Below, piece after piece: positions 20,840 through 46,432 of a stretch of 48,510 nt of DNA. The notes under the pieces are model-generated. The model saw only the letters and a list, made by a program, of their open reading frames with translations. It was not told where the DNA came from and searched no databases. Origin of the DNA: a virus. Location: positions 1 to 48,510 of IMG/VR virus record IMGVR_UViG_3300009788_000034, one strand, 5' to 3'. Made by a program: the position numbers and the translations under genes. The stretch's first letter is position 1; every line of letters begins with the position of its first letter.

Positions 20840-21217
20840 TCATTCGTCCCTGGGGGCGAGCACCATCCACGCCTTGCCGCACGACCAATCGACGCGGGGC
20901 CACGCGCAGTCGCACCACAGATCGTTGAGATCCTCATCGTAGTGGTCATCGTTGCAGCTGCCGAACTCTTCTCGTATCCAATCCTCGACATCATCGATGT
21001 GGTCGCGAAACTCTTCGCCGTTGGTGTCGCCAGTCAGCCACCGGCTGTCGATACGGACGTGGAAACACTTGGGACGGTGGTTGATATTCCAGACGATGCA
21101 CAGCGCCTGCCCGTCGCCGAACTGCCGACCAACGACGACAGGGATGATCGTGTTGCACGTGTCGGGGACGAGATGCGTCTCCGATGGAAGGATGGAAGGA
21201 ATGCGAAGGGTCTTCAT
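20840..21217 (-). CDS. Hypothetical acidic Trp/Cys-rich protein, 125 aa
   Basis: From ATG 21217 the product has a beta-type N-terminal half, then a strongly acidic helix (EFRDHIDDVEDWIREEF) and a tail with DLWCDCAWPRVDWSCG, a possible metal site. The ATG is eight bases after the CGTC of the ECF-like promoter at 21226-21252, so translation is probably leaderless. It is not part of the virion gene chain. Function unknown. Confidence 0.75.
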   Translation of the reverse strand: MKTLRIPSILPSETHLVPDTCNTIIPVVVGRQFGDGQALCIVWNINHRPKCFHVRIDSRWLTGDTNGEEFRDHIDDVEDWIREEFGSCNDDHYDEDLNDLWCDCAWPRVDWSCGKAWMVLAPRDE

Positions 21218-21225: not shown

Positions 21226-21252
21226 GACGAGCGAGTACCCCTTGCGGTCACA
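21226..21252 (-). promoter_or_regulatory. ECF-like promoter TGTGACC-N16-CGTC (minus)
   Basis: TGTGACC is at 21252-21246 and CGTC at 21229-21226, with exactly 16 bases between, containing a G-run. The start codon of the downstream gene is eight bases beyond CGTC. TGA of the TGTGACC box is also the stop of the upstream gene. A near mirror copy of the -35 half lies at 21312-21318 on the other strand, making an 11-bp inverted repeat. Confidence 0.65.
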
Positions 21253-21472
21253 ATTCTTTGCGAGGGTGCCCGGATAAGGGCTGACGTTTTTCGGAGAAAT
21301 CGACGGGGAAATTGTGACCGGAGGGGGTGTATGTAACGAGGACAGCAGCCCACCGCGTCCCGCTCATCAGTAGGACTCCGACAGCCCTCGTGACGCATGT
21401 CCGGGCGAGCCCGCGCTTGAGGGTGGGGAATATGGCAAGCGCGTTGCCGACGTGGAGTGTGCCGCTGGTCAC
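21248..21472 (-). CDS. Small hydrophobic protein, 74 aa, GTG start
   Basis: GTG 21472 overlaps the preceding stop by GTGA. The product is basic with aliphatic stretches (HVGNALAIFP and AVGVLLMSGTRWAAVLVTY), the second long enough for a membrane segment. It ends exactly in the promoter of the next gene. Supported by coupling and composition; function unknown. Confidence 0.55.
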   Translation of the reverse strand: MTSGTLHVGNALAIFPTLKRGLARTCVTRAVGVLLMSGTRWAAVLVTYTPSGHNFPVDFSEKRQPLSGHPRKEL

Positions 21473-29381: not shown

Positions 29382-29708
29382 ATGAACCTCTCGGCTGATA
29401 TCGACCTGGGTGATGCCGAGATTTCGATTCCGGTGCGTGCTTCTCTTGCTTTGCCTGCGGAACTTGCACTGCGCATCACCACCGCCCATCGCGCCATGGT
29501 GCGGCGATGGCGTCGTCGGTTCGGCGACGACAGCCTGCCCGCGATATCCTGGTCTTGGCAGCAGAACATCCTCACCGCGTCCTGGTCCATGGGTTTTCAC
29601 GAGCCCAGTGCAGATGTTTTCTTCCCCGATTGGTCACATGACCGCCCCGTGATTTCCCGCCTGAATCTGATATGCGCTCGCGTGATTCGGCGACTATGGA
29701 CGAGGTGA
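29382..29708 (+). CDS. Accessory protein, 108 aa, probably leaderless
   Basis: ATG 29382 lies six bases after CACGAT, with TGGACG 18 bases further up: the geometry of the leaderless class. The product starts MNLSADIDLGDAEISIPVRA and ends in a Trp/Arg-rich half (SWSWQQNILTASWSMGFHEP). It is an isolated plus-strand gene between two late minus-strand genes. No family recognised; a moron role is likely. Confidence 0.65.
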   Translation: MNLSADIDLGDAEISIPVRASLALPAELALRITTAHRAMVRRWRRRFGDDSLPAISWSWQQNILTASWSMGFHEPSADVFFPDWSHDRPVISRLNLICARVIRRLWTR

Positions 29709-29729
29709 GTGTCAACGTCCGGGTCAAGA

Positions 29730-30923: not shown

Positions 30924-30953
30924 GCTCTCTCTCGGTTGGTGTTCAGGATATCT

Positions 30954-31907: not shown

Positions 31908-31955
31908 GCACACCTCTGAAGTCCCTGGCTACCCCGCCGCGTAGAGGGTATGCAG

Positions 31956-31984: not shown

Positions 31985-32672
31985 GGTCCGAGTCTGCCCG
32001 TTGACAATACATATCCGCGCTGGTGCCCGCAAGTCCTTTCCGCGTCGCGGTTTGATGTCGCGGCGCCTCCCTGGTGCTCGCTTGCGCCCTGGGTGGACAT
32101 GCCTTGTCGGTGCGCGCCGGTGCGCGAGTACGCGAAATCATTGACCCTTTCACCTCAATCGAAGGCCTTAGAAGCCGGCGCCCTGGCTCGACACCAGAAA
32201 GCCGACCGCATGCGCGAATTCCGCCCACCATCGCCCGGACCCCGCCCTAGCCGTCGCCAACCTATATCTTATACAGGCGACGGTCGTGGCATATCGCCAG
32301 CCGCGGGTCCCGGGTACTACCCGGTCACGTGGTCCAGCTCGGACCGTCGCAGGGTTTCCCCGGCCAGCTGTGCCAGCACGCCTGACGCTCCGGGTCCGAT
32401 TCGACGGTACTCCGGAGCAATGCGCGTGCGTTCGTGGCACTTGGCTGACAAGGGCAGGTGATTCGGATCGTGTGGGTCAACACGTCCGGCCGCCGCCAGT
32501 CTGCGAGGGTTGGCCTGATCCGGCTCATGAGCTGGACTGTGCGTCGATGCGAAGTTGCAAGGGCCAAATTGCCCCAGCAAGTCAAACTCCATAGACATAG
32601 ACGCACAATCCAGCCCACGAGCCCCCGGGTGGCCGTACAGGGGTACCCCCCCTGGCTGCCGATCTCCTGCTC

Positions 32673-32839
32673 GTGGGCTGCGATGGACTATCCTGCAGAT
32701 CCAGGTACACCGACGCATCAGACTAGCGAAGCCAGAACGCACGCGCAATACCTGGGCAGCGGCTGCAACCGCCGTTCCCTCCACGAGCAGTTGCAGCCGC
32801 TCGGATCGGTTTCCTGCAGAATGGCCCATCGCAGCCCAC
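32673..32839. repeat. Long nested inverted repeat
   Basis: Outer arms 32673-32698 and 32814-32839 match at 23 of 26 positions. Inside are a 7-bp pair (32701-32707/32749-32755) and a perfect 12-bp pair AGCGGCTGCAAC/GTTGCAGCCGCT (32758-32769/32790-32801). This forms a three-stem junction in RNA or a cruciform in DNA, and is too long to be chance in a random gap. Confidence 0.8.
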
Positions 32840-32990
32840 GAACCAAGGGCGGCCCCGTGGTCTGCGTGGGATCTTCGCTGGCTCGTGGGCTCGATGCCAT
32901 GCTGATACCCGATTGTCCCCGGGGTTTGGGGTCGGGACGAGGATTGTGCTCCCGGGCCTACTCGGCCTGCAGCATCCACGTCAGCACAGC

Positions 32991-33048
32991 ATCCAACCCA
33001 CGAGGGCGGACGTACAACCAGGCCCGTCGCGGTGCCTGGACTACCTTG
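32991..33048. repeat. 58-bp dispersed repeat, copy 1
   Basis: 53 of 58 bases match the copy at 34233-34290 in the same orientation. On the minus strand both can encode the short peptide VRPRGLD after a shared KVV-x-AP-x-RAWLY. Copy 1 lies in the structured gap, copy 2 just above a gene start. A shorter core (AGTAGTCCAGGCAC) recurs at 35857-35870. Confidence 0.85.
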
Positions 33049-33150
33049 GCACTCATCGCACCTCGCACCGGCCACCCGCAGGTGATTTACATCCGTGACT
33101 TGACACGGCGGTGCGGAAACGTGTTTGATGAGATTGACCAATGCAGGGCG

Positions 33151-33180
33151 AGCGTAATGCACTCGCCCGACCGACGTCAA
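33151..33180 (-). promoter_or_regulatory. TTGACG promoter facing the structured gap
   Basis: TTGACG (33180-33175) is followed, 18 bases on, by TACGCT (33156-33151). The surrounding bases (GCGAG then GCATTACGCTCGCC) closely match the leaderless promoter at 35823-35851, but no ATG follows at six bases. This is consistent with transcription of a noncoding RNA; a TTG at 33141 is the only nearby start. Confidence 0.5.
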
Positions 33181-33479
33181 GCCACCCGGTCCACACGTCG
33201 CCCGACGCCCCGTCCTCTCGGGGTGTTCGTGGTTTCGGTGAGCGGTACCAATCGCCCGTCAGAGAGCTGGCAATACGCCATGTCTGGATCTCCGTGCCCG
33301 CAACAGGCATTCATCACGCCGGGGATATTGCCGAGGCATGCGTCGTGACCGTCTGGCTGGTTGGGGAGCCTGCAGTGGCCGCACACGCGATCTGGACACT
33401 CGGCGACGGCGATGCCCGTGTCGCAGTACACCCACAACCCCAGCAATCGTTCGGTGATCGGATGACCTCGCCACCTCAT
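33177..33479 (-). CDS. Conserved phage protein with ACCGHG motif, 100 aa
   Basis: CGHCRLPNQPDGHDACLGNI is followed by PGVMNACCGHGDP: a Cys/His cluster seen in many phage and prophage proteins that share G-H-D-x-C-L-G-x-L-P-G-V-x-x-A-C-C-G-H-G. Probably metal binding; function unknown. ATG 33479 overlaps the stop of the HTH gene by ATGA, so it is co-translated with a regulator. The C-terminal ETTNTPRGRG lies in a dispersed DNA repeat. Confidence 0.75.
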   Translation of the reverse strand: MRWRGHPITERLLGLWVYCDTGIAVAECPDRVCGHCRLPNQPDGHDACLGNIPGVMNACCGHGDPDMAYCQLSDGRLVPLTETTNTPRGRGVGRRVDRVA

Positions 33480-33721
33480 ATCTCGTCCTCGAGCACGCGG
33501 ATCAGGTCGCCGAGCCTGCCATGGGATATTCTCTTCGTGCCCTTCTCGGCGCGGCTCAGATGGCCGTGATCGAGCCCCGCTCGACGGGCTACGTCTCGTA
33601 GTCCGAGCCCCGCCCTCCGCCTCGCGGTGTACAGCAAGACACCGATGTTCTCCCACCGCGCCTCGATCTCGCGCTCTAATCCGCTTATAATCGCTAACTC
33701 GTCCGTTACGCGTTGCCCCAT
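33476..33721 (-). CDS. Cro/CI-type HTH regulator, 81 aa
   Basis: Residues about 25-75 are an XRE helix-turn-helix: TARRRAGLGLRDVARRAGLD with HGHLSRAEKG as recognition helix, then HGRLGDLIRVL. Only a DNA-binding domain is present, as in Cro proteins. ATG 33721 is six bases after CACGGT of a TTGACG promoter, so the mRNA is probably leaderless. It faces away from a second HTH gene at 34876. A repressor or Cro-like role in the lytic/persistent decision is likely. Confidence 0.85.
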   Translation of the reverse strand: MGQRVTDELAIISGLEREIEARWENIGVLLYTARRRAGLGLRDVARRAGLDHGHLSRAEKGTKRISHGRLGDLIRVLEDEI

Positions 33722-33727
33722 GCGGGC

Positions 33728-33756
33728 ACCGTGGCAGGCCGAGTACCCCGCGTCAA
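33728..33756 (-). promoter_or_regulatory. Leaderless promoter of HTH gene
   Basis: TTGACG (33756-33751), 17 bases, CACGGT (33733-33728), six bases, ATG. The transcript should begin at or next to the A of the ATG. A GTTCGTGGTTTCGG repeat lies 25 bases further upstream. Confidence 0.6.
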
Positions 33757-33796
33757 GGTTTTGCACCCACTCCGGCGGGTGTTCGTGGTTTCGGGG

Positions 33797-34234
33797 TCAT
33801 ACAGCAAGCGTGGTCTGGCCAATCTTCCAAGTTGCCGCCTGGTCAGCTACCGCGCGAAGCCCAGACGCCAGCGCGAGATCCGCGTCGCCGCTGATGGCCA
33901 CACGTTCATTGTACGCCTCTGCGAACTGCAGGAAGATGTCACCGTGACAAGGGGCTGGTGCGCAGACGCACACCATGCCAGCAGACCAGGATGCTGCCAT
34001 GAGCACGTCGTGTTGGAAGTCCCCCTCGTTTTTCAACCGGCGATAGAAGTGACGGGCCGCGCACACGAGTGCAGCCGTCCCGTCACTGTCGCGTGTGTGG
34101 ATCACTCCGCAGATGGGGCATGGTTTGCCCAAGGCGATGGGGTTGCCGAGTGGACCGGGGCGGGTAATCGAGTCTCGACGAGGCAGATCACCCGGCATCG
34201 GGCCGAGGTCTGTCTCGATACGGCAAACGACCAT
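33797..34234 (-). CDS. Hypothetical zinc-motif protein, 145 aa
   Basis: Near residue 39 CPICGVIHTRDSDGTAALVC suggests a small zinc site, followed by HFYRRLKNEGDF and an Ala-rich helical half. ATG 34234 is chosen; GTG 34243 in frame is an alternative. The start lies at the end of the 58-bp repeat copy at 34233-34290. Function unknown. Confidence 0.65.
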   Translation of the reverse strand: MVVCRIETDLGPMPGDLPRRDSITRPGPLGNPIALGKPCPICGVIHTRDSDGTAALVCAARHFYRRLKNEGDFQHDVLMAASWSAGMVCVCAPAPCHGDIFLQFAEAYNERVAISGDADLALASGLRAVADQAATWKIGQTTLAV

Positions 34235-34290
34235 CCAGCCCACGAGGGCGAACGTATAACCAGGCCCGTTGCGGTGCCCGGACTACCTTG
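34233..34290. repeat. 58-bp dispersed repeat, copy 2
   Basis: Matches 32991-33048 at 53 of 58 bases. It ends at the start codon of the minus gene 33797-34234, so here it forms the untranslated leader or promoter of that gene. Confidence 0.85.
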
Positions 34291-34430
34291 CTCGATGCCA
34301 TCCCCTCCCTGTGTAGACCCGTAGGTCCTCGCCCGTTGTCGGGCTTCCTGCCTGGACAGTGTCACAGGGGATAGGTAGGATGGATTCGTCAACAAAGCCC
34401 CGCGAGCCTATGGCAACTCGCCCGCCCTCG
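34291..34430 (-). other. Gene-free leader with stem structures
   Basis: On the minus strand, TTGACG (34396-34391) and CCCTGT lie 17 bases apart. The transcript that follows contains GCCCG-ACAA-CGGGC (34333-34346) enclosed by an interrupted pairing of CCCCTGTG with CACAG-GGAGGGG. No gene is seen. It may be a structured 5' leader for the gene at 33797-34234. Confidence 0.4.
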
Positions 34431-34745
34431 TCAAGGGTCTGAGCCGGTCACGAGACCGGGGTAGGACTTCGAGCCCCTGCTCTCGAGTGGGGGCTTGGTG
34501 GTTTCGGCCAGGATGGCTCGGACTTCCATATCGATCTCGTCAGAGAATTCTTTGGACTGCCTCTGCTCTTCTGCCGTGAGCCAACGAGTGACGAAGCGCG
34601 GCGACCTCCACTGCGGCGGTCGGTATTCCAGGCGGTCCACCGTCCGTTGGATATCGGGACGATCGAGCTGTTGCTGTATCAGAGGGATCTCGTCGGGTGG
34701 GGGGAGGTTGCGCATCCACGCGCGCATGGCGGTTTCTGAGAGCAT
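34431..34745 (-). CDS. Hypothetical regulatory-region protein, 104 aa
   Basis: Helical, acidic and basic mixed sequence (RWLTAEEQRQSKEFSDEIDM) with no Cys; it ends with ETTKPPLESRGSKS, echoing the ETTN-peptide encoded by a DNA repeat in neighbouring genes. ATG 34745 is eight bases after the -10 of a TTGACG promoter. Divergent from the HTH gene at 34876, it might be an antagonist or immunity partner. No family recognised. Confidence 0.6.
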   Translation of the reverse strand: MLSETAMRAWMRNLPPPDEIPLIQQQLDRPDIQRTVDRLEYRPPQWRSPRFVTRWLTAEEQRQSKEFSDEIDMEVRAILAETTKPPLESRGSKSYPGLVTGSDP

Positions 34746-34753
34746 GGCAACGA

Positions 34754-34782
34754 GCATGGCGCGCGCAGCTCTTGCCCGTCAA
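34754..34782 (-). promoter_or_regulatory. TTGACG promoter, minus side of divergent pair
   Basis: TTGACG (34782-34777), 17 bases, CCATGC (34759-34754), then eight bases to the ATG at 34745. Together with the plus promoter at 34841-34869 it forms a divergent control region of about 60 bases, a natural place for repressor operators. Confidence 0.5.
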
Positions 34783-34840
34783 GAGTCCGCCACCCTCGGG
34801 TTGCGCTCAGGGGTACTCCCCCTGGCTGCCGGTTTCGGGC

Positions 34841-34869
34841 TTGACGTGGCCACGCCTTGTCACCATGAT
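34841..34869 (+). promoter_or_regulatory. Leaderless promoter of second HTH gene
   Basis: TTGACG (34841-34846), 17 bases, CATGAT (34864-34869), six bases, ATG 34876. A 29-base repeat (34808-34836, 26 of 29 identical to 32638-32666) ends just before the -35 and contains the near-palindrome AGGGGTACTCCCCCT, a possible operator. Confidence 0.6.
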
Positions 34870-34875
34870 GGCGTC

Positions 34876-35226
34876 ATGTATGACCTGACGAGAACACTAC
34901 GAGAACTCGAAATCACACAGACCGAGCTGGCGACAACGATGGAAGTGCCACCAAACTCGATTGCCCAGTGGTGCACCGGCAACCGCACCCCCTCACTCCA
35001 GAACGCGATGGCAATCACGGACGCTTTGGGCATCACGCTCGATGAGCTGGTCGGCCACCCGTCCACGAACGGTGCGGAGATGTCTCCCGCGTACCATGAC
35101 GGATATGACGTCGGCTATCGCGGGAGTGCCAATCCAAACAAGCATGGCACAGAAGAGTGGGGGGCATGGATTCGCGGAAATCGCCTCGGGCGGCAAGCCC
35201 GTAAGGAATCGCAGCTCCCCAGATAG
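34876..35226 (+). CDS. Cro/CI-type HTH regulator, 116 aa
   Basis: Residues 1-60 are an XRE helix-turn-helix: LRELEITQTELATTMEVPPN then SIAQWCTGNRTPSLQNAMAI, then LGITLDELVG. The C-terminal 50 residues are Gly/Asn-rich with no known dimerisation or protease-like domain. It has the leaderless start geometry shared by the other regulators. With the minus-strand HTH gene at 33476-33721 it could form a CI/Cro-like switch, though they are not immediate divergent neighbours. Confidence 0.88.
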   Translation: MYDLTRTLRELEITQTELATTMEVPPNSIAQWCTGNRTPSLQNAMAITDALGITLDELVGHPSTNGAEMSPAYHDGYDVGYRGSANPNKHGTEEWGAWIRGNRLGRQARKESQLPR

Positions 35227-35475
35227 ACACCTCACGATCCCCCGGTCAGCCGACACGCCGCCCGACACGCCCCGTCCTCTCGGGGCGTTCGTGGTTTCGG
35301 GTGTCGGTGGGGCCAACTCCAGGGCGAGGGAGCTTTCTGCTCGTGGGCTCACGGCCCGCACACCAGCGCTCTGCAGCGCGCCCGCTCCTACAATGGGAAC
35401 GGTCGGCTCGTCGAACCAGCCGACGGTGTGCGAGGCATCAACCCACGAACGCCCGGGTAGCCGTGCCACCTCCAT
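34993..35475 (-). CDS. Doubtful 160-aa ORF antisense to HTH gene
   Basis: ATG 35475 overlaps the stop of the preceding gene (TGATG), and the first about 80 residues (MEVARLPGRSWVDASHTVGW onward) look translated. The frame then runs 234 bases into the opposite strand of the HTH gene, where it is probably a shadow. It includes the repeat-coded ETTNAPRGRG. The gene may have lost its original stop through repeat recombination. Low confidence for the 3' part. Confidence 0.4.
   Translation of the reverse strand: MEVARLPGRSWVDASHTVGWFDEPTVPIVGAGALQSAGVRAVSPRAESSLALELAPPTPETTNAPRGRGVSGGVSADRGIVRCLSGELRFLTGLPPEAISANPCPPLFCAMLVWIGTPAIADVISVMVRGRHLRTVRGRVADQLIERDAQSVRDCHRVLE
35287..35300. repeat. GTTCGTGGTTTCGG dispersed 14-mer (one of four)
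   Basis: Exact copies lie at 33225-33238, 33781-33794, 35287-35300 and 35484-35497, all in the same orientation, with a weaker copy at 34494-34507. Copies at 33225 and 35287 are preceded by a shared GC-rich hairpin, GCCCCG-TCCTCT-CGGGG. They fall at or near the 3' ends of minus-strand genes. Confidence 0.85.
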
Positions 35476-35816
35476 CAGGGGGCGTTCGTGGTTTCGGGGG
35501 ACACCTCGAGCAGCGAGGACAGCGATTCGATGTCCATGACAACGAACAGTGGGCGCATTCCCAGCGCGCGAGCACCACCCACAAAGCACGACCGGCACAA
35601 CAGGCCAGCGCCGCCAAGGGAGACACCGGTGAGATGGCGATACACCTCGTCCCATTGCTCGTGCGCCCACCAGGAGTGTCGCACACGTCCACCGCAGTGG
35701 TCGCAGGTCTCAGCCGAATATCCGAGAACGCGGAGAAGTAGCCAGGCCCTGATGCGAGCATGAACCCGTCGCGGCCGTCGCCAACGCGTCACGGAATAGC
35801 AAAACCAGACCCTCAT
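35475..35816 (-). CDS. Conserved-looking phage zinc protein, 113 aa
   Basis: A basic N-terminus (WRRPRRVHARIRAWLLLRVL) precedes ETCDHCGGRVRHSWWAHEQW and GLLCRSCFVGGARALG: two CxxC pairs around a Trp-rich segment. This resembles small phage proteins with C-x-x-C-G, W-W-A, L-W and G-L-L-C-P-x-C-F. Probably a zinc-bound fold; role unknown. ATG 35816 is leaderless by geometry and also overlaps the upstream stop. Confidence 0.75.
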   Translation of the reverse strand: MRVWFCYSVTRWRRPRRVHARIRAWLLLRVLGYSAETCDHCGGRVRHSWWAHEQWDEVYRHLTGVSLGGAGLLCRSCFVGGARALGMRPLFVVMDIESLSSLLEVSPETTNAP

Positions 35817-36091
35817 GCGGCGAGCGTATGCCGCTCGCACCCCAGCGTCAAGCTAGTGCCTGGACTACTTCGAGCGACCCCCCCCCTCGCTGCGATCCCC
35901 CGTAGAGGCACAATGATCGCGCTGGCTTGCGCGACGGCCGAGACCTTGCCAGCCAGCTGCCGGGAAAGTGTCAGGTCGCGTACCTGCCGAGCCATGGATT
36001 CGGCGCGTTCCCTGCGCTCCACGAACTCCCGCTCACTGTCCGTCGTCAAGCGCGGCCCGAACACCTCCGACACGCACCAGCTGGCAGGCAC
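35813..36091 (-). CDS. Hypothetical helical basic protein, 92 aa
   Basis: GTG 36091 start. A helical core (TTDSEREFVERRERAESMAR) is followed by an aliphatic stretch (GKVSAVAQASAIIVPLRG). No Cys cluster apart from two single Cys. Its 3' end carries the promoter of the next gene and the stop overlaps it by ATGA. Function unknown. Confidence 0.55.
   Translation of the reverse strand: MPASWCVSEVFGPRLTTDSEREFVERRERAESMARQVRDLTLSRQLAGKVSAVAQASAIIVPLRGIAARGGVARSSPGTSLTLGCERHTLAA
35823..35851 (-). promoter_or_regulatory. Leaderless promoter inside upstream gene
   Basis: TTGACG (35851-35846), 17 bases, TACGCT (35828-35823), six bases, ATG 35816. The whole element lies within the last codons of gene 35813-36091, so the downstream gene can be made both by read-through and from its own start site. 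Confidence 0.65.
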
Positions 36092-36187
36092 CGCATAGGA
36101 CCCGACCTCTCAGAGCACTGCCGCGTCAAACCCCCTCACCGTGACGACGAGCCCTCGCCAGAGACACCGATGGGGTATGCTGTCAGT

Positions 36188-36292
36188 ATGAGGATGACAA
36201 GCTATTCGGATATCTCCACCGATATGGACGGACTCCATGGCGATCTACCCAGCAAGAACATTGCACGAGTCACCCTGACGGTTCAGCAATGA
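36188..36292 (+). CDS. 34-residue protein coupled to the receiver gene
   Basis: M-R-M-T-S-Y-S-D-I-S-T-D-M-D-G and then a helical, polar remainder ending VTLTVQQ. TATGCT (36176-36181) lies six bases before the ATG, so translation is again leaderless; no -35 was found, suggesting an activator. Its stop overlaps the receiver start by ATGA, so the two are made together and may work together. Confidence 0.65.
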   Translation: MRMTSYSDISTDMDGLHGDLPSKNIARVTLTVQQ

Positions 36293-36693
36293 TCACCATA
36301 TACGTTGTGGACGATTCGGCGACTGCGAGACAGTGGATGGCGGGAATCCTGCACGACCATCACGTGATCCAATTGGATGGCAAAGAGCAGCTCGATCGCA
36401 TGATCGATTCTCAGGGATTTCCGACCGCCATCGTCTCCGATGTCATGATGGATGGACCTCAGGGGTATGAAATAGCCCGGGAGCGTAGCGCAAGGGTGCC
36501 GGTCATATTGGTATCCGCCGTGGGGCCGGGTACACAGGAGAGTCGGGAGAGGCGTGACCAAGCACGCGTTCTCAAGGTTGCATTCGTGGCCAAGGAAAAC
36601 GCCGAACGAGACCTCGCTGGTTTGGTCAAGGGCGCTGTCAGGAAAGGGACAAGACATGTCCGTGGGTACACTGGAGACACTACCGCTCGCTGA
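36289..36693 (+). CDS. Second stand-alone CheY-like receiver, 134 aa
   Basis: Receiver pentad complete: D8-D9 in YVVDDSATAR, D51 in AIVSDVMMDG, S76 in VPVILVSA, and K102 in AFVAKEN. The domain fills residues 1-118; a short basic tail follows. There is no output domain and no kinase nearby. D8, D9 and D51 sit at the same positions as in the receiver at 2808-3164, but the rest differs a lot, so they are not recent duplicates. It may intercept host two-component signalling, for example motility or stress control. Confidence 0.92.
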   Translation: MITIYVVDDSATARQWMAGILHDHHVIQLDGKEQLDRMIDSQGFPTAIVSDVMMDGPQGYEIARERSARVPVILVSAVGPGTQESRERRDQARVLKVAFVAKENAERDLAGLVKGAVRKGTRHVRGYTGDTTAR

Positions 36694-36727
36694 ACTTTCG
36701 GCCCTGGGATTCGTCCTGGGGCTTTAA
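36656..36727 (+). CDS. 23-residue hydrophobic peptide overlapping receiver end
   Basis: ATG 36656 follows GGAAAGG with good spacing; the peptide is M-S-V-G-T then LETLPLAELSALGFVLGL. Its stop lies in the tail of a terminator. It could be a third product of the receiver operon, or chance. Confidence 0.4.
   Translation: MSVGTLETLPLAELSALGFVLGL
36702..36727 (+). terminator. Terminator with UUCG loop after receiver operon
   Basis: CCCTGGGA pairs with TCCTGGGG (two G-U pairs) around TTCG, followed by CTTTAA. The short U-tract makes it moderate. It separates the plus-strand receiver operon from the convergent minus-strand operon ending at 36776. Confidence 0.6.
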
Positions 36728-36775
36728 CCGCCAACCACGGCACGGAGAGCGCCGCGCGGCCGGGTGACGGTTGAA

Positions 36776-37063
36776 TCACAGTAGCTCCAACTGGCCGCGT
36801 TCCAGTTCGTCTGGAACAAGCTGTCCCTCGTCATGTCGCAACTTGTTGACCAGCGCGAAGTCGTTCTTCTCGTAGATCAGATCGCCATTTCGCACTCGGT
36901 AATACCTCGCGCCAGGTGTTTGGCCACCGGAAAATCGTGCTCGCAAGACCATCGCCGAGCCCCGTCCCCGCCGCATGGGGTATCTCCACCCGACGAGAAG
37001 AACAGGCATGGTGGACCGGTCACTGTCCCACCGGTATTTCATGGCGCGATCAGACTGAGTCAT
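36776..37063 (-). CDS. Hypothetical basic protein, 95 aa
   Basis: ATG 37063 lies 14 bases inside the previous gene; an internal Met at residue 8 is an alternative. Beta-rich, basic N-terminal part (STMPVLLVGWRYPMRRGRGS), then YYRVRNGDLIYEK, and an acidic C-terminus. Last gene of the five-gene minus operon driven by the promoter at 38115-38141. Confidence 0.65.
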   Translation of the reverse strand: MTQSDRAMKYRWDSDRSTMPVLLVGWRYPMRRGRGSAMVLRARFSGGQTPGARYYRVRNGDLIYEKNDFALVNKLRHDEGQLVPDELERGQLELL

Positions 37064-37352
37064 CGTCACGGACCCTCTTCGGAATAGATGGTGGCTGGTC
37101 ACTCCACGGTGCCCACTCGCTGTAGCCATTGCTGGCGTGACGCTCCATCTGGTCCGGGCGACGCTTGACGGGGCTGCACCCAGTGCGGTTGTGCATCTGC
37201 CAGAAGTCCGGGCGCCCTGGCCATAGACCGATGGCATGCACCACCTTGATCCACCTGCCCACGGTGGCGCTGTAGTACCAGAGGCGCCCACCAGCCATGG
37301 GCAGACCGCGGAGGTCGTACTCGAGAGGAGTATGGGGTTCGATGACGCTCAT
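37050..37352 (-). CDS. Hypothetical Trp-rich protein, 100 aa
   Basis: Contains GGRLWYYSATVGRWIKVVHA, a beta/aromatic segment, then a basic polar tail. GGTGG precedes ATG 37352, which overlaps the upstream stop by ATGA. Function unknown. Confidence 0.65.
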   Translation of the reverse strand: MSVIEPHTPLEYDLRGLPMAGGRLWYYSATVGRWIKVVHAIGLWPGRPDFWQMHNRTGCSPVKRRPDQMERHASNGYSEWAPWSDQPPSIPKRVRDDDSV

Positions 37353-37477
37353 GGGGCCACCGTGTCAACAAGGTGGCACGTCTTCTTGCGCCGTCGCTTC
37401 GCGAGCCTCTTGCGGCGCTTGGCGCAGTTCCGCTCGACCCGTCCGTGGTAGACCACCGTCGGCTTGTGCCGGTTCAT
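37349..37477 (-). CDS. Very basic 42-residue protein
   Basis: The middle is RNCAKRRKRLAKRRRKKTC, almost entirely Arg and Lys. Both ends overlap neighbours by ATGA. Such a peptide should bind nucleic acid; a role in DNA or RNA handling is inference from charge alone. Confidence 0.65.
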   Translation of the reverse strand: MNRHKPTVVYHGRVERNCAKRRKRLAKRRRKKTCHLVDTVAP

Positions 37478-37770
37478 GGCGCTACCGTCCCGATGAGTGC
37501 CTGCGCAACGAGCCAGTGCTCGATCGCCCCACCGAAGAACCGCCCGGCATACACGTCCAGGATGGCGGCGCGCTCCCCGGTCTCACCAGCGTGGACGCGC
37601 GCAGAGCGGGCATGTCCGGTGTACCCCGCGCGCAGACGCCGAAACCCCGCGACCGCGGTGCACGCCATGTGGTGGAGGCGCAACTCGGCCAGGACGCCAG
37701 CATCCGCCGAAACCGCCCAGTCCGAGTACCCCTCACGGCACAGTGGGCAGTCACCGAGCGGCCACCTCAT
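37474..37770 (-). CDS. Hypothetical zinc-like protein, 98 aa
   Basis: MRWPLGDCPLCREGYSDWAV begins with a CxxC pair; HHMAC near residues 33-37 could complete a metal site. A helical C-terminus follows. Coupled by ATGA on both sides within the minus operon. Confidence 0.7.
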   Translation of the reverse strand: MRWPLGDCPLCREGYSDWAVSADAGVLAELRLHHMACTAVAGFRRLRAGYTGHARSARVHAGETGERAAILDVYAGRFFGGAIEHWLVAQALIGTVAP

Positions 37771-38090
37771 ACCGCCACCGTCCCCGCGCAGACCACAGCG
37801 TCGATGTCGTCGAGCAGGTCCTCGGCCAGGCCGATGAGGCCATCCCCGAGCAGGGCAGTGAGCTCCGCCGCCATCGCCCTGATAGTGGGCAGCCCGGCAA
37901 GCGCGGTGAATGCCTGGCTCGCGTGGCCATGGGCAGCGGTGAGGTCGGAGGTCAGCTCGTCGCGACAGGCCGTCAGCTCGGCGCCAGCTTCCCAGACGTT
38001 CGCCACGCGGACGGTGATGCACGAGGGCGCGTGATTGATGAGCGCTGCACGACCGCAGGACTGGCACGAGACGCTGATGATGAAGGCCAT
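37767..38090 (-). CDS. Hypothetical protein with N-terminal CxxC, 107 aa
   Basis: FIISVSCQSCGRAALINHAP at the N-terminus suggests a zinc knuckle; the rest is a helical, acidic, Ala/Leu-rich domain (TALLGDGLIGLAEDLLDDID). AAGGAGA seven bases before ATG 38090 is a strong ribosome site, unlike the leaderless genes. First gene of the operon under the ECF-like promoter. Confidence 0.75.
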   Translation of the reverse strand: MAFIISVSCQSCGRAALINHAPSCITVRVANVWEAGAELTACRDELTSDLTAAHGHASQAFTALAGLPTIRAMAAELTALLGDGLIGLAEDLLDDIDAVVCAGTVAV

Positions 38091-38114
38091 GATATCTCCT
38101 TTTTCCATATAGAA

Positions 38115-38141
38115 GACGACCAACACCCCCTCGCGGTCACA
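38115..38141 (-). promoter_or_regulatory. ECF-like promoter TGTGACC-N16-CGTC (minus operon)
   Basis: TGTGACC (38141-38135), 16 bases with GGGGG, CGTC (38118-38115) followed by TTCTAT. Upstream, AAAAAGCGAC-N5-A partly matches GAGAAATCGAC upstream of the copy at 46165. It drives genes 38090 down to 36776. Confidence 0.65.
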
Positions 38142-38246
38142 ATCGCACGTCGCTTTTTGCAGGAAATCCGGAGCTCATCGATGGCGGTTCGAAAAGCTCA
38201 ATGATTCCAGGCATCTGCGATTTTGTCGTTACAAGTGCCGCCAAGA

Positions 38247-38273
38247 TGTGACCAGCGCAGGGGCTGAGTCGTC
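38247..38273 (+). promoter_or_regulatory. ECF-like promoter TGTGACC-N16-CGTC (early operon)
   Basis: TGTGACC (38247-38253), 16 bases, CGTC (38270-38273), then eight bases to ATG 38282, the same offset as at 21217. With the minus copy 100 bases away it forms a divergent early control region. The gap 38142-38246 holds no gene. Confidence 0.65.
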
Positions 38274-38281
38274 CTTTGGGT

Positions 38282-38512
38282 ATGACGAACAAGTGGCGAA
38301 GGCCATACTCGGAAATCGTTGACAAGGTCGTGCGCCAGACACTCAAACACCCTGCGTGGAACGCACGGGGTGAGCCGGAAGACTTCGTCCGACTCTGCCA
38401 CAGGGCCACTGAGGAGAACAGGACCCCACGGGGGCGGATCAGCGGCGAGGTCAGCGCGCAGCGCACGATCTCGCAGGAGATCGGCTGGTACGGGGTGGTG
38501 AGGCCGACATGA
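38282..38512 (+). CDS. First early-operon protein, 76 aa
   Basis: Basic N-terminus (MTNKWRRPYSEIVDKVVRQT), Arg-rich middle. The ATG lies eight bases after the promoter CGTC, so the message is probably leaderless. Its stop overlaps the next ATG. Possibly a small nucleic-acid-binding protein; not recognised. Confidence 0.7.
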   Translation: MTNKWRRPYSEIVDKVVRQTLKHPAWNARGEPEDFVRLCHRATEENRTPRGRISGEVSAQRTISQEIGWYGVVRPT

Positions 38513-38694
38513 TGACACCACAACCAACGTATGAATTTCGCTGGCACCCCAGCGAGGACACCGACCCGAACGCACCCTCGCAGCATCCGAGAGGAACCTA
38601 CGAGGAGGCCAACCTGTGCGCCACGGCCTACCAGGCACGGATCGATCTCATCGCGCCCGATGGCAGCGTGGTGGCGACGGTGGCTCGCGCGTGA
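38509..38694 (+). CDS. Hypothetical 61-aa early protein
   Basis: Acidic and aromatic, ending in a beta-strand pair (RIDLIAPDGSVVATVARA). Start overlaps the previous stop; the next gene begins at GTGA. Function unknown. Confidence 0.65.
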   Translation: MMTPQPTYEFRWHPSEDTDPNAPSQHPRGTYEEANLCATAYQARIDLIAPDGSVVATVARA

Positions 38695-38912
38695 AAGACG
38701 GTGATGCCAGGCGACTGGCCGAGCGTACAGCGCCCATGTCGCTGCAGGAGCAAAGGCAGATCGGGTACGCCGATGACTACGGATGCGAGCTTTGGATGGT
38801 CCCCGCGTTCATCCTCGCGCACAGCGCCCTGACGCTGCTACGCGATGGTCTGCCCGAGCAGGCAATCGCAGCGTTCGAGGGCGCGGTCAGAGTGCTGAGG
38901 GCCAGGACATGA
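38691..38912 (+). CDS. Hypothetical 73-aa helical early protein
   Basis: GTG 38691 arises from GTGA overlap. The C-terminal half (HSALTLLRDGLPEQAIAAFE then GAVRVLRA) reads like one TPR-type helical pair. Function unknown. Confidence 0.6.
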   Translation: MKDGDARRLAERTAPMSLQEQRQIGYADDYGCELWMVPAFILAHSALTLLRDGLPEQAIAAFEGAVRVLRART

Positions 38913-39169
38913 CCCTCCAGGCCTTCGTGGGCCGAACGGCGCAACTCGTGGCGGAAGCGGGCATCCCATCCGATGAGGAGTGGTGCATGTTCTGCGAGGT
39001 GGCAAGCTCACCGTCATGGCCCGAGGGTGCGACCGAGCGAGCGTTCCAACTGTTCCGTCCCGACGAACCGGACTGGACCGTCGAGCTCCGGCGATTCTGT
39101 CGAGACTTCGACCTGCGCATCCCGCCACAGGCTGCCCACCGCGGGCGAGAGCAAATGGAGCTGATATGA
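38909..39169 (+). CDS. Hypothetical 86-aa early protein
   Basis: Helical and acidic with two Cys near residue 26-30 (EEWCMFCEVA). Overlaps both neighbours by ATGA. Function unknown. Confidence 0.7.
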   Translation: MTLQAFVGRTAQLVAEAGIPSDEEWCMFCEVASSPSWPEGATERAFQLFRPDEPDWTVELRRFCRDFDLRIPPQAAHRGREQMELI

Positions 39170-40134
39170 GCCCAAACCACGCAACGACAGACATGATACC
39201 CGTCGTCGCATCGGTGCACGCAGTGGACATCGGCACACACGTGCCAGCGTCAGAGCGCCAGTACACAGGAAGCCCGATCGACCCGCCTGATAACATGCCC
39301 CATGTCTGGGACGAGCTCTGGCACGGTAGGTCGAGGCCGCGAGTCGAACACTTCACCGAATATCGAATCTGGCGGGACCGCGGGCTCCGCCTGCGAATCC
39401 GGGCAACGGCAAGCGGCCGACTGATTGGCATCTACGCCGCGGAAACAACCGGCAAGGGCACACGCAAACCACCTGCGCACGAGGACGTCGATTTGGCGGC
39501 ACAGCTGGCGAAGTGGATGACGGGCAGTGAGAGCATCCACGATGTGGAGCCACTCGTGGAGCCGGTACTGCGCTACGTCAAAGACGTTGGACTACCGACG
39601 GGGACACAAATCACCCTAGTGCATGAGAAGCGAAATGGCATAAGCTCGACACCCGCCCTCTATCACGTGGTCTACGAGGGTTTGATGAGCCTGGCCTACT
39701 TGGTCTATGCGGATAGTCATGGTGGCCCTACGCGGTTGGTCAAGCGGTCCAAGCCCGGACCGTTCGGCCAGCAAATCATCGTGGGGCAGATCTCAGCTGA
39801 GCACCTACTCGCGACGGGGAGTAAGAGCTTTCTCCCGTGGTGGCTCGACATGGGCGAGGATGACCGGAAAGGACTCGCCCAACACATCCGAAGCGCGGCT
39901 GGCGCCATCATCGATCAACCACCATCCTGGACGTGGTGGCAGGCATGGGTCGTTCGCAACCAATACACGCTCTGGTATGAGCCGCTCGGCGTTCGAGCCT
40001 GGGCTCCAGGCTTGAGGTGCTCGATACGGGCCGCTGCGAATAAATATCTGCGACCCCAACGGAACAGCCCGCCGCCCGCGACTGCAGTGCAGGGCTCTCT
40101 ATTCGACACCACCGCAGACAGGGAGATGCCATGA
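39166..40134 (+). CDS. Hypothetical 322-aa early protein
   Basis: The longest early gene without a recognised family. A helical N-terminal third is followed by an alpha/beta region with Trp clusters (FLPWWLDMGEDDRKGLAQHI, later PSWTWWQAWVVRNQYTLWYE) and a Pro/Gln-rich tail ending QGSLFDTTADREMP. QGSLF near the C-terminus resembles a sliding-clamp-binding motif (Q-x-x-L-F), which would tie it to DNA replication or repair; this is inference. Confidence 0.7.
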   Translation: MSPNHATTDMIPVVASVHAVDIGTHVPASERQYTGSPIDPPDNMPHVWDELWHGRSRPRVEHFTEYRIWRDRGLRLRIRATASGRLIGIYAAETTGKGTRKPPAHEDVDLAAQLAKWMTGSESIHDVEPLVEPVLRYVKDVGLPTGTQITLVHEKRNGISSTPALYHVVYEGLMSLAYLVYADSHGGPTRLVKRSKPGPFGQQIIVGQISAEHLLATGSKSFLPWWLDMGEDDRKGLAQHIRSAAGAIIDQPPSWTWWQAWVVRNQYTLWYEPLGVRAWAPGLRCSIRAAANKYLRPQRNSPPPATAVQGSLFDTTADREMP

Positions 40135-40307
40135 GCGCAAGACACTGCTGGCAGGACTACGAAGAGTATACCGAGCTCCTGTTCGGCGCGTCGTCGTCTG
40201 AACACATCGCCGCCCTCACGGGGCCAGGCAAGACATGTATGCGCGAGGTGGACCATGATGGTGCCCACGAGTGGACCGACGACCGGTCCATTGGACTGAG
40301 CTTCTAG
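40131..40307 (+). CDS. Small phage Cys/His protein, 58 aa
   Basis: Starts MSARHCWQDYEEYTELLFGA and has CMREVDHDGAHEWTDD, a pattern of short phage zinc proteins (C...H..GAH.W). Coupled to the previous gene by ATGA and last before the operator region at 40322. Confidence 0.65.
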   Translation: MSARHCWQDYEEYTELLFGASSSEHIAALTGPGKTCMREVDHDGAHEWTDDRSIGLSF

Positions 40308-40321
40308 CCCACGAATACGTC

Positions 40322-40458
40322 TTGACACCAGAGATAATCACTGTCACCGTATACAAGGTTCCTACACCAGACACCATTTTTCCAAAGGTGTCACCGCGCC
40401 CCCTGTGTGGTGTAGGAACCTCCGCAGCGGGGCGCGGGATACCCGAGGTTCCTACGCA
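40322..40458. promoter_or_regulatory. Operator-like region with three AGGTTCCTAC motifs before the BRO gene
   Basis: AGGTTCCTAC occurs at 40356-40365 (plus), as its reverse complement at 40412-40421, and at 40446-40455 (plus), touching ATG 40458. The first two form a 19-base inverted repeat (40356-40374/40403-40421, 17 pairs). Within it GACACC and GGTGTC (40370-40375/40387-40392) form an alternative stem. A TTGACA box is at 40322. The layout suits autoregulation by the BRO protein or control by a repressor. Confidence 0.6.
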
Positions 40459-41342
40459 TGCATCCCCTGATTGAGTTCAACAACGAGCAGATCCACACAT
40501 TCGATCACAAAGGGCGCCCGTGCTGGCTGGCCGGGCAGATCTCGGTGGCCATCGGCTACGTGAATCGAGGCCGCATCAGCGCCTATGTTCGCGGACACTG
40601 GGCGGAAGAGTTCGAGGAAGGTCAAGACTTTCAGACCCTGCGCGGTCAAGAGATGAGAGATTTCAAGAGGTTGAATGGGGACATACTCCATGGTGGTATG
40701 CCCCTGAAGGGGGTGAGCATGGCGACCATCCTCTTCGAGCCCGGCGTCTTTCGCGCATTGACCCTGTCCGAGCTGCCGACAGGCAAGGAACTCAGACGCG
40801 TGCTGAGCACGGAGGTGCTACCGCAGATCGCCAGGGATGGACAGTACAGCGGTGTGCGAACCGTGACACAGCGAGGCGAGATGGTGAACTCGCAATCCAC
40901 GAGCCCAGGACAGTCACTTCGCGACCTGTTCGCATCGCTCGGACGGCTGGGCACGACGCCACCCGAGGTGATGTCCTCACTCGCGATCCGCATCGCGGAG
41001 CTTGAGACGGGACTCGATGCGGAGAACATCTTTCGACACGCGCCAGCGGCAGCCACCGTCACGGCGTTCATAACCGAGACGCCACAGCTCGAGCTACGGT
41101 CGATCCCGTCGCCGCTCCGCACTGCCACGGAGCTGGGACTGCGGTTCAAGGTGTCCAAGCAGATGGTAGGCGTCGCCGCCAACTCACTCGGGTGGCGCGA
41201 TGGCGGTCCCGGGGTATCCTTCGCTGCACAGGTCCTGCCCGACGGCCGCGCGGTGAATGTCCGGTACTTCGACGTGGAGGCGGCTGAGGCCATCGGGGCA
41301 GAACTGGTACGTCGAGGGAAGATCGAAGAGGAGACACCATGA
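40458..41342 (+). CDS. BRO-family antirepressor-like protein, 294 aa
   Basis: Residues about 8-120 match the BRO-N domain pattern: IHTFDHKGRPCWLAGQISVA, then the G-Y run, FEEGQDFQTLRGQEM, and ALTLSELPTGKELRRVLSTE near 105. The C-terminal part (TELGLRFKVSKQMVGVAANS) is a separate helical domain, perhaps DNA binding. BRO-N proteins in phages bind DNA and often act as antirepressors. No ribosome site is seen; the third operator motif overlaps the start, so autoregulation is likely. Confidence 0.85.
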   Translation: MHPLIEFNNEQIHTFDHKGRPCWLAGQISVAIGYVNRGRISAYVRGHWAEEFEEGQDFQTLRGQEMRDFKRLNGDILHGGMPLKGVSMATILFEPGVFRALTLSELPTGKELRRVLSTEVLPQIARDGQYSGVRTVTQRGEMVNSQSTSPGQSLRDLFASLGRLGTTPPEVMSSLAIRIAELETGLDAENIFRHAPAAATVTAFITETPQLELRSIPSPLRTATELGLRFKVSKQMVGVAANSLGWRDGGPGVSFAAQVLPDGRAVNVRYFDVEAAEAIGAELVRRGKIEEETP

Positions 41343-41848
41343 GGCACACCCTCCACATGACAGGCGGGGGCGAGACCATTCCACCGGAGCACGACGCCCC
41401 CGTCTGCACCAAGCCAAACTGCGAGGGTTCGCTGGTGCCAGTTGTCTACGCGGATGGGCGAATCCTCCAACCTCGCCACATCAGCACGCCAGGAACGACG
41501 GTATATAACAAGGAGTGGATGACGCTGCGGTGTGCTGGCTGTGGCCGGCAGACGCCACTCCCCGCCACCCATGACTTGCTGCAGGCTTGGTATTCCGCAG
41601 GCGCGCACGAGCAGCGGCTGTACATGGATGCCTCGCCCATCCGCGAGTCGTCAGGGCTGGACATCATCACATCCTGCGAGCGCTGCCCGTGTCTCGACGT
41701 CCGCGTCGAGTGTGACACCGGGAACGACGTCCTGGTGTGCTCGGCAGACGAGACCGTTGAGATCCAGGACGACGAGGTCCACACCATGCCCGCCGACTGC
41801 CCGCGGGTGGGGCGCACGGCTACTTGGCCACGCGAGGTCAAGTCATGA
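41339..41848 (+). CDS. Multi-cysteine zinc-ribbon-like protein, 169 aa
   Basis: Three Cys pairs: CTKPNC near residue 23, CAGCG near residue 65, and CERCPC near residue 112. The remainder is acidic. It is coupled between the BRO and nuclease genes, so it probably serves DNA metabolism or gene control. No named family recognised. Confidence 0.7.
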   Translation: MRHTLHMTGGGETIPPEHDAPVCTKPNCEGSLVPVVYADGRILQPRHISTPGTTVYNKEWMTLRCAGCGRQTPLPATHDLLQAWYSAGAHEQRLYMDASPIRESSGLDIITSCERCPCLDVRVECDTGNDVLVCSADETVEIQDDEVHTMPADCPRVGRTATWPREVKS

Positions 41849-42369
41849 GCACCAAGCGATATCCCAAGAGCCGGGACGGGAACGAGAAACCGATCGTCAA
41901 CGCCCTCCGAGCGCACGGGTGCAAAGTGTGGAGGATCGAGGGCGGGCCAGGGTCCGAGGGTGTGCTCGACCTCCTCGTGGAGTATCCAGACCGCGCCATT
42001 GATGAGTTGATTGGCGATCTGGAGGCCCTGTCGATGTGCCTCGATCACGACCGTAGGTACATCTCGGACATCGAGCGCGTAGAGAAAGTGGTCCATGTAC
42101 TACGGCGCCGCGAGATGGCCTGGATGGTTATGGAGGTCAAGAACCCGGACGGCAAGACCGGGGGAGGCAAGGGGACGATCCGCGTTCGAGACCTTGCCGC
42201 GGGTGCCAAGTATCGCGAGGTCCTGCGCTTCTGCACCCAACCCATCGCGCGGCTATGCAAGGAGTCCCAGGGTGATTTCCTCCTGGCTCACAGTGCTCCT
42301 ATGGCCGTGGTGACATCGGTCGCGGAAGCCCTCGCAGCGGTGGGCATCGAGCAAGGAGAGACGACGTGA
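41845..42369 (+). CDS. VRR-NUC / resolvase-like nuclease, 174 aa
   Basis: E14 lies in DGNEKPIVNALRAHGCKVWR, D42 in GVLDLLVE, and E97-V-K99 in WMVMEVKN: the order E...D...ExK of PD-(D/E)xK nucleases of the VRR-NUC kind common in phages. The about 50-residue helical insertion between D42 and E97 is longer than usual. It should cut branched or damaged DNA during recombination. Position beside the ERF-type gene supports this. Confidence 0.82.
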   Translation: MSTKRYPKSRDGNEKPIVNALRAHGCKVWRIEGGPGSEGVLDLLVEYPDRAIDELIGDLEALSMCLDHDRRYISDIERVEKVVHVLRRREMAWMVMEVKNPDGKTGGGKGTIRVRDLAAGAKYREVLRFCTQPIARLCKESQGDFLLAHSAPMAVVTSVAEALAAVGIEQGETT

Positions 42370-42737
42370 ACATCATGACCGTATGGGTCCCGTGGGAGGA
42401 CTGGTATCGCAGGGGGTCGCATGCGCAGCATCGGGCATTGCGCACCGCTGTCCTCGCCGTCGTCGGCCACCAGTGGAGCGAGCACATCGTGCAGGTCGTG
42501 GTCGAGATACGGCAGGAGCGACGACCACGCCAGAAGCGGCCGACCGTCGTCGGCCACCAGCTGCTCGGGCCAGTGGCAAGCGCGCTGGTTGGCCCGGTGC
42601 TGGCGCATGGGCGGCAAATCACGAGGCTCGAGATGGTCGTACGCTGGTGTGCGCCAGACGAGGAGCCCGGGTGCACGATCACCGTCGCAGACGAGGCCGC
42701 CCTGGCACTCTTACCGACAACCAAGGAGCAGACATGA
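42366..42737 (+). CDS. Hypothetical 123-aa protein with internal repeat
   Basis: GTG start from GTGA overlap, with GGAGAG upstream. Two similar segments (VVGHQWSEHIVQVV and VVGHQLLGPVASAL) suggest a small internal duplication. Aromatic N-terminus MTVWVPWEDWYRR. Lies in the recombination module. Confidence 0.65.
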   Translation: MNIMTVWVPWEDWYRRGSHAQHRALRTAVLAVVGHQWSEHIVQVVVEIRQERRPRQKRPTVVGHQLLGPVASALVGPVLAHGRQITRLEMVVRWCAPDEEPGCTITVADEAALALLPTTKEQT

Positions 42738-42922
42738 GAATCCGCATCGTTTGGAATGGCTGCAACGCCTGTCACGGCGCTGTGTGGACGGACCCGAGCG
42801 GCGAGAGGGCGTGTCGAGGCTATTACAGGATAGAAAGGACGATGGCGAACGACGTCTATGGCCCACCCGACGAGCCTAGCTGTGGGGCCAGGTGGCGAGA
42901 CCCCAAAGGAACGACACCATGA
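42734..42922 (+). CDS. Small Cys-rich protein, 62 aa
   Basis: MRIRIVWNGCNACHGAVW opens with a CxxCH motif; two further Cys follow near residues 28 and 51. CxxCH could be a zinc knuckle; heme attachment is unlikely without a signal peptide. ATGA-coupled on both sides. Confidence 0.65.
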   Translation: MRIRIVWNGCNACHGAVWTDPSGERACRGYYRIERTMANDVYGPPDEPSCGARWRDPKGTTP

Positions 42923-43286
42923 AGATGAAGACCGAGCGAACCGAGACAGACGAGAACGGGCTTCCGCCAGACTGCGGTTGCTTTCGCTTCCACCGCGGAT
43001 GGTGCCCTGGGCGAGAGTCGGAGCTGTTCGAGCGTCAGACATACGTCCTGGCTCTGATACCCGAAGAGATGGCCAACGCCCTGGATGTGTGTCCACGCGC
43101 GGCATGTGGTCATCGAGGCAGTGACCATGGGGTGTTGGCCACTGGCTGCATGGTGGACGACTGCCCGTGTGGAGAGAGTCCCGCACTGGACACGAAGGTG
43201 CGCACGGCAGCAGCTGAGAACTTCGCCGACACCATGAGCGACGAAGAGAGAATCAAACGAGGCTTCGCCGCACGCGATGAGACATC

Positions 43287-43290
<4 letters not shown>
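42919..43290 (+). CDS. Cys/His-rich protein, 123 aa
   Basis: CGCFRFHRGWCPG near residue 19 and CPRAACGHRGSDHG near residue 59, then CMVDDCPCG: three Cys/His clusters consistent with two zinc sites. The tail is helical and acidic. Immediately upstream of the ERF gene. Role unknown. Confidence 0.7.
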
Positions 43291-44134
<844 letters not shown>

Positions 44135-44138
<4 letters not shown>

Positions 44139-45996: not shown

Positions 45997-46169
45997 CACC
46001 CGAATACCTCAGACGACAGTACGGGCATGCCACCAATGAAGCATGGGCCGCGATAGCTGGGATGCTCGACGATCTGCTCGGCGTCGTTTCGCTGATTCGC
46101 AATGGCCACATGGATAGCTCGATTCTCATCGGGGCAGAAGTTTCTGAGAAATCGACATCCGACTTGTGA
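45993..46169 (+). CDS. Hypothetical 58-aa helical protein
   Basis: Helical sequence (TNEAWAAIAGMLDDLLGVVS). Its TGA stop is part of the TGTGACC box of the promoter at 46165-46191, the same arrangement seen at 21248. Confidence 0.65.
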   Translation: MTPEYLRRQYGHATNEAWAAIAGMLDDLLGVVSLIRNGHMDSSILIGAEVSEKSTSDL

Positions 46170-46191
46170 CCAGCATGGGGTCTGAGTCGTC
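46165..46191 (+). promoter_or_regulatory. ECF-like promoter TGTGACC-N16-CGTC (second early operon)
   Basis: TGTGACC (46165-46171), 16 bases with GGGG, CGTC (46188-46191), then TTCTGT. GAGAAATCGAC lies just upstream (46146-46156) and also upstream of the half-site at 21312. Drives the genes from 46214 through the junction to 2818. Confidence 0.65.
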
Positions 46192-46213: not shown

Positions 46214-46432
46214 ATGACGACCACCACCCGCCAAGAATTCAGCCCTGCCACACCGACCGCCATCACCATCGCCTGGGACCAAAACGCCGAGGACGAGTAC
46301 GGCTGGTTTTCCCGCCACCCAGTTGACGGCGACGACGTGCTCGAGGTCGCCGGGCAGGGTGCCACGGACGCAGAGCTGAACGCCGCGGTGCATCCGATGT
46401 ATCGCAGCTGTGTCGTCACCATCGAGCGCTGA
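46214..46432 (+). CDS. Hypothetical acidic protein, 72 aa
   Basis: PTAITIAWDQNAEDEYGWFS, an acidic middle, then HPMYRSCVVTIER. GAGAGG lies nine bases before ATG 46214, so this copy of the promoter has a normal leader. Function unknown. Confidence 0.7.
   Translation: MTTTTRQEFSPATPTAITIAWDQNAEDEYGWFSRHPVDGDDVLEVAGQGATDAELNAAVHPMYRSCVVTIER

Follow-up and report, generated by a model that had tools for sequence, protein, structure and literature searches.

The phage genome recorded as IMGVR_UViG_3300009788_000034 (48,510 bp, 63.7% GC; this whole stretch is the window analysed here) carries four intergenic copies of a bipartite element, TGTGACC-N16-CGTC, each 8-24 nt upstream of a same-strand start codon, and from their sequence and placement it is highly probable that these constitute a real set of promoters. 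A narrower proposal, that they are group IV (ECF) promoters read by an ECF-type sigma factor, likelier the host's than the phage's, is one that we hold at about even strength. The host ECF sigma is the leading reading because the closest published promoter forms, those of Tt-RpoE1 and ECF41, are bacterial, as far as the accessible portions of the respective papers go.

Genome layout and the four sites

The record has a direct terminal repeat of ~124 bp and is therefore probably a complete circular assembly. On a gene map curated by hand from the open-reading-frame list and several gene calls, plus-strand genes run from 38.3 kb to the record end and on to 2.8 kb, structural genes lie on the minus strand, mostly from ~31.9 kb to 2.8 kb, and ~16% of the genome is intergenic. 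Profile searches identified a P22-type portal, a terminase, an SU10-type adaptor, an ERF annealing protein, a NUDIX hydrolase, a BRO/Ant antirepressor, and two HTH_3 proteins (33476-33721 and 34876-35226), with the majority of phage proteins matching no PHROG or Pfam family. Searches for a relative of the phage were negative (i) in IMG/VR with the terminase, portal, ERF, capsid, and a 1551-aa protein as queries, (ii) among genome contigs with the terminase as query, and (iii) among phage records with the terminase, capsid, and NUDIX protein as queries. Megablast of 30000-48510 against phage records also gave no match, and searches with the BRO/Ant protein and the 3561-3968 protein returned matches to widespread domains only. 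There are weak hints of a host in Actinomycetota, namely the leaderless starts described below and one widespread phage protein whose best matches are in Gordonia and Microbacterium phages.

The genome is densely coding apart from two long stretches, 31913-33476 and 35300-37767, in which both strands show a weak coding signal. Four exact copies of GTTCGTGGTTTCGG (33205-33238, 33761-33794, 35267-35300, and 35464-35497; 0.02 expected) occupy a gene-poor stretch, each directly following a short hairpin, the stems not being the same in all copies; the stretch also holds a 59-nt, 92% repeat (32990/34232) and a 28-nt inverted repeat (32671/32814). The GTTCGTGGTTTCGG repeats have no Rfam match and, with their hairpins, possibly form a repeated RNA element. 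At 36289-36693 is encoded a CheY-like receiver domain that stands alone (VVDDS...SDVMM...), which phages do not usually carry; the Pfam receiver match (E=8.9e-6) came from a pooled scan and was assigned to this frame from its sequence, and the protein has no match in phage records.

A preliminary description of this DNA had reported four copies of the box TGTGACC, a 16-base spacer with a G-run, and CGTC, each copy preceding a gene or operon start, and this is borne out in every particular. Two sites are on the minus strand, s1 at 21226..21252 and s2 at 38115..38141, and two on the plus strand, s3 at 38247..38273 and s4 at 46165..46191. CGTC is followed by TTCT in three cases, as had been claimed (21226-, 38115-, and 46165+), and by CTTT in s3. 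The chance that a random stretch falls 6-25 nt before a curated same-strand start is 0.0138. At s1 and s3, only 8 nt separate CGTC from the ATG (21217 and 38282, respectively), and both starts are predicted to be leaderless. The distance is 24 nt at s2, which is divergent from s3; here a predicted start at 38106 leaves a 16-nt predicted leader with AAGGAG before ATG 38090, an in-frame ATG being present also at 38108. At s4, which lies inside the plus-strand operon, the distance is 22 nt, and a predicted start at 46200 leaves a 14-nt predicted leader with AGAGGA before ATG 46214. In all four sites, the base 9 nt past CGTC is a purine (A, G, A, and G) and has a pyrimidine before it.

None of the four downstream genes encodes a protein of known family. 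Site s1 precedes a lone gene among structural genes, for a 125-aa protein (20840..21217, minus strand; coding score 10.8) that is predicted to be s1-driven, matches no PHROG family, and has an insignificant best Pfam match (E=0.22). The gene predicted to be driven by s2 encodes a 107-aa CxxC protein (37767..38090, minus strand) with no Pfam family and only a weak PHROG match (E=0.028); it was taken from a gene call, and one coding-score gene caller chose GTG 38126 over ATG 38090. The long plus-strand operon begins after s3 with a gene for a 76-aa protein (38282..38512, plus strand) that has no PHROG or Pfam match and was called by coding score, a simpler gene caller not having chosen it. The first gene downstream of s4, also from a gene call, encodes a 72-aa protein (46214..46432, plus strand) with no family in PHROG or Pfam.

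In the mechanism we propose, RNA polymerase with an ECF-type sigma, for which the host is a likelier source than the phage, would bind all four sites, using TGTGAC(C) as the -35 box and CGTC as the -10 box across the 16-base spacer, with RNA presumably starting ~9 nt past CGTC. Transcription would begin at the ATG itself for 20840-21217 and 38282-38512, and 14-16 nt before a Shine-Dalgarno-bearing ATG for 37767-38090 and 46214-46432. The s2/s3 pair at 38.1 kb, which heads both genome arms, would drive them outward from the centre, a divergent arrangement that suits an early switch; s4 (46165) falls in the same plus arm as s3. The assignment to early operons in the preliminary description is nonetheless not established, s1 standing ahead of a single gene within the structural half. 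The conserved G-run may be a spacer element that the sigma factor, or a co-regulator, contacts, and several genes of the structural half would use promoters of a second class, TGnTAnnnT-N6-ATG, as for a housekeeping sigma.

This second class occurs seven times versus 0.28 expected (largest number in 100 shuffles, 3), a motif scan placing the starts at 30296-, 29321-, 25710-, 21603-, 19258-, 18461-, and 20578+; at other spacings between TGnTAnnnT and ATG, there is one copy at N5 and none at N7-N12. The copies span 18461-30311 on the minus strand and 20563 on the plus strand, among genes of the structural half, and we take them to be a form of extended -10, leaderless housekeeping promoter. As an internal comparison, predicted leaderless starts are usual in this phage, and its apparent housekeeping-type promoters bear no resemblance to the four ECF-like sites. 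The start at 21603- belongs to a 44-aa leaderless gene (ORF 21469-21603; end entered as 21472 in the gene map) whose beginning encodes one copy of FWWHIHQL(V/I)AHPLLV, the other being encoded by an opposite-strand C-terminal fragment; the two copies lie in the arms of a 46-nt inverted repeat (21546-21591 / 22657-22702) that is 83% complementary.

The usual view is that phages gain entry via the housekeeping sigma or supply a polymerase or sigma of their own. Tentatively, and as a possibility with the balance tilted against it, this phage may split its transcription between two holoenzymes, with the central arms expressed via a host ECF sigma, or via a phage sigma belonging to a new family, and the structural genes via leaderless extended -10 promoters. 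If so, the phage's genes would be expressed in step with envelope or other stress signalling in the host; likewise, if the central divergent promoters are host-ECF-shaped, infection would be tied to the stress state of the host.

Recurrence of the motif in the window

TGTGACC-N16-CGTC matches four times in 48,510 bp versus 0.05 expected, and 0 of 100 shuffles reach four; this count alone does not settle the matter, the pattern having been selected from a sequence already read, and arbitrary other 7-mer/gap/4-mer pairs in the phage genome also reach 4-5 copies. Among exact TGTGACC-Nk-CGTC matches with k from 5 to 59, four fall at k=16 and single ones at k=36 and k=50, and no copy with one mismatch at the 16-base spacer is present anywhere in the phage genome. 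A T directly precedes CGTC in all four sites (TCGTC), and the majority consensus reads TTGTGACC-N16-CGTCTTCTnTATG.

Because the pattern had been chosen by eye, we tested the columns unused in its choice (n=27; one before the -35 box, the spacer, and ten after CGTC). On these columns, which exclude the 11 defining bases, pairwise identities among the four sites total 81, the mean of 200,000 random quadruples being 43.5 and the maximum 76. An unsupervised repeat search independently finds the pairs 38247/46165, 21222/38111, 38106/46164, and 21221/46161. With a leave-one-out profile, each held-out site is the best non-training match, at 20-38 bits versus 12-13 bits for the best non-site, a separation that is partly circular in that the profile includes the 11 site-selecting bases; on the other columns, the positions scoring at or above the held-out site number 36, 4, 179, and 4 of 96,938 (training sites included). 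Equally good matches inside genes, which the preliminary description had held to count against its reading, did not appear in the whole-genome motif scan, the leave-one-out scan returning no near-copy of the four sites there.

G-run sites and alternative readings

The G-run in the spacer of all four sites extends beyond them. TGTGACC occurs 12 times in the phage genome, six times with GGGG in the next bases versus ~2% expected per site, and exactly those six are intergenic, the other six all falling within genes. Two of the six (21313+ and 29632-) are without CGTC at spacer 16: s5 (21313..21327, plus strand), which is divergent from s1 and forms an inverted pair with it, and s6 (29623..29638, minus strand), which reads TGTGACC-N4-GGGG with TGTGACC at 29632-29638 and has CATC at spacer 15. 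An upstream element, TTTCnGAGAAATCGAC, lies 8 nt upstream of the s4 TGTGACC (46141..46156, plus strand) and again at 21289-21304 before s5, both copies being in register with TGTGACC; these are its only two matches in the genome, with 0 in 100 shuffles. Given the CGTC-less G-run sites, the TTTCnGAGAAATCGAC common to s4 and s5, and the inverted s5/s1 pair, what is conserved may extend past the -35 and -10 boxes. The lack of CGTC in s5 and s6 is not explained by a pure -35/-10 reading; these two sites may be promoters that have decayed, or else operators bound by the same regulator.

Since the G-run is found also at two CGTC-less TGTGACC sites, a model of a regulator plus the housekeeping sigma stays live. 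Here, a regulator of phage or host origin would have TGTGACC-N3-6-GGGG as its operator and would activate or repress a housekeeping-sigma promoter, with CGTC and the bases downstream belonging to that promoter or to the operator. We consider this unlikely, yet deserving of real weight: the intergenic confinement of the G-run copies and the recurrence of TTTCnGAGAAATCGAC in register would both fit an operator, as would the lack of CGTC in two of the six, and the divergent site pairs at 21.2 and 38.1 kb and the two encoded HTH_3 proteins point the same way. However, TGTGACC is not palindromic and has no paired half-site at a fixed distance. Moreover, the four sites are not followed by a TAnnnT -10 at any fixed position, the constant features being CGTC and the predicted start, and the TGnTAnnnT class illustrates the appearance of a housekeeping -10 in this phage. 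A CRP-like half-site was rejected for want of a TCACA partner.

A highly diverged sigma factor, or sigma-appropriating protein, encoded by the phage itself could also read the sites, in the way that gp36 of phiEco32 serves its own promoters; we judge this unlikely, to about the same degree as the regulator model. Phage-encoded sigma promoters typically come in small numbers of almost identical copies in the available text of PMC4331800, and a diverged sigma could hide here because the majority of the phage's proteins match no family. Nevertheless, the search for sigma regions 2 and 4 suggested in the preliminary description came back empty, with 0 matches to Sigma70_r2 (PF04542) or r4_2 (PF08281) in six frames of the phage at E<=10, the same domain searches giving positive matches in control genomes. 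Tblastn with phiEco32 gp36 yielded nothing significant (best E=0.94, next 7.8), and single-sequence structure models of the 38282-38512 and 47207-47653 products had mean pLDDT of 51 and 52, too low to use. The promoters themselves also differ: those of the phiEco32 and 7-11 phage sigmas have another -10, with motifs tAATGTAtA or TGATGT in the accessible part of the source (PMC4331800), and phage ECF-type sigma promoters are described, in the excerpt available, as having no recognizable -35 element (PMC5333181).

Among 396 genomes of one phylum (that of a Streptomyces record), 234 have a match to the motif, with a maximum of 10 per genome, no outlier, and no regulon-like excess. No large regulon is visible, as none of the 396 has >10 copies, in a scan that would miss a small regulon; this lack of enrichment is a point in favour of a phage-encoded sigma. 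A 17-base core was found in one IMG/VR contig, inside a CxxC coding sequence, and in genome contigs as 18 scattered matches, where an open frame of >=184 codons covers the core in 18/18, weak evidence since GC-rich DNA commonly holds long frames. A 14-base core is present in at least 118 IMG/VR stretches; among the matches listed, 117 of 118 have one TGTGACCN16CGTC and one has two. Full-record scanning of 43 IMG/VR records with this core, being those longer than ~15 kb among the 80 listed of the 118, gave one match in 40 and two in 3.

That the sites are instead a translational or RNA-level element is very improbable: they do lie 8-24 nt before an ATG, but two are only 8 nt away without an obvious Shine-Dalgarno, two have a separate Shine-Dalgarno, and there is no Rfam match, a riboswitch or leader RNA being rejected on the same result. 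Chance, or simple recent duplication without function, is scarcely credible, for although the pattern is post hoc and other 7+4 patterns reach similar numbers, the repeat search, the leave-one-out scan, the intergenic placement, and the off-box identity test all speak against it, with the copies identical in the boxes and varying by substitution elsewhere.

Comparison with known promoters

The -35 element of ECF promoters has an AAC-like core. One of the two closest published forms is from Thermoanaerobacter tengcongensis, a Firmicute. The promoter of its ECF sigma Tt-RpoE1 was defined by scanning mutations as tGTTACN16CGTC, with CGTC at -13 to -10 (PMC3397946, seen in part); like the phage sites, it is bipartite, with an identical -10 CGTC, a -35 core of GTnAC, and spacing equal within one base. 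The phage sites differ from it in having G for T inside the -35, an extra C after, and the AC pair one base further from CGTC, and they carry a G-run, none being reported in the accessible text on Tt-RpoE1 (PMC3397946). With the published -13 to -10 numbering, the RNA start would be one base later than the leaderless ATGs.

The ECF41 target promoter, TGTCACA-N16+-1-CGTC in the portion of PMC3426412 available, shares the -10 and the spacer length with the phage sites and agrees in 5/7 bases of the -35. There, the -35 box is termed ECF41-specific, and the genes downstream of the promoters are bacterial COE or ECF41 genes (PMC3426412); in contrast, the phage sites read TGTGACC in 4/4 and precede phage genes. 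The phage -35 core is GAC, against GTTAC (PMC3397946) and GTCAC (PMC3426412) in these partly seen sources, and TGTGACC has no exact match among the published -35 consensus sequences found. For an ECF -10 of CGTC or CGTT, the phage has CGTC in 4/4; for a constant ECF spacer of 16-17 bp, N16 in 4/4. The earlier claim of an ECF-like rather than a sigma-70 shape thus stands, the bipartite geometry being within one base of the forms excerpted from PMC3397946 and PMC3426412; a consensus scan found no TTGACA or TATAAT hexamers at the four sites, and sigma-70 promoters there were rejected. Targets of Streptomyces coelicolor sigma-E, in the available part of PMC6767563, have a CGTC/CGTT -10; one site reads TGTGACC but ends in CCTC, and the others have -35 boxes that differ from TGTGACC, several of the AAC type.

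Among phages, the accessible accounts of phiEco32 and 7-11 offer a parallel in few, strongly conserved promoters set in divergent gene arms and read by a non-housekeeping sigma; those promoters, however, have another -10 and no -35, whereas the sites here have an invariant TGTGACC, and a sigma gene is annotated in phiEco32, with none detectable in this phage. In the open-subset PMC literature, as partly seen, phage-encoded ECF sigma factors do appear, but phage promoters of this ECF form do not. The promoter architecture itself is already known, and the novelty would be a host-type ECF promoter in a phage.
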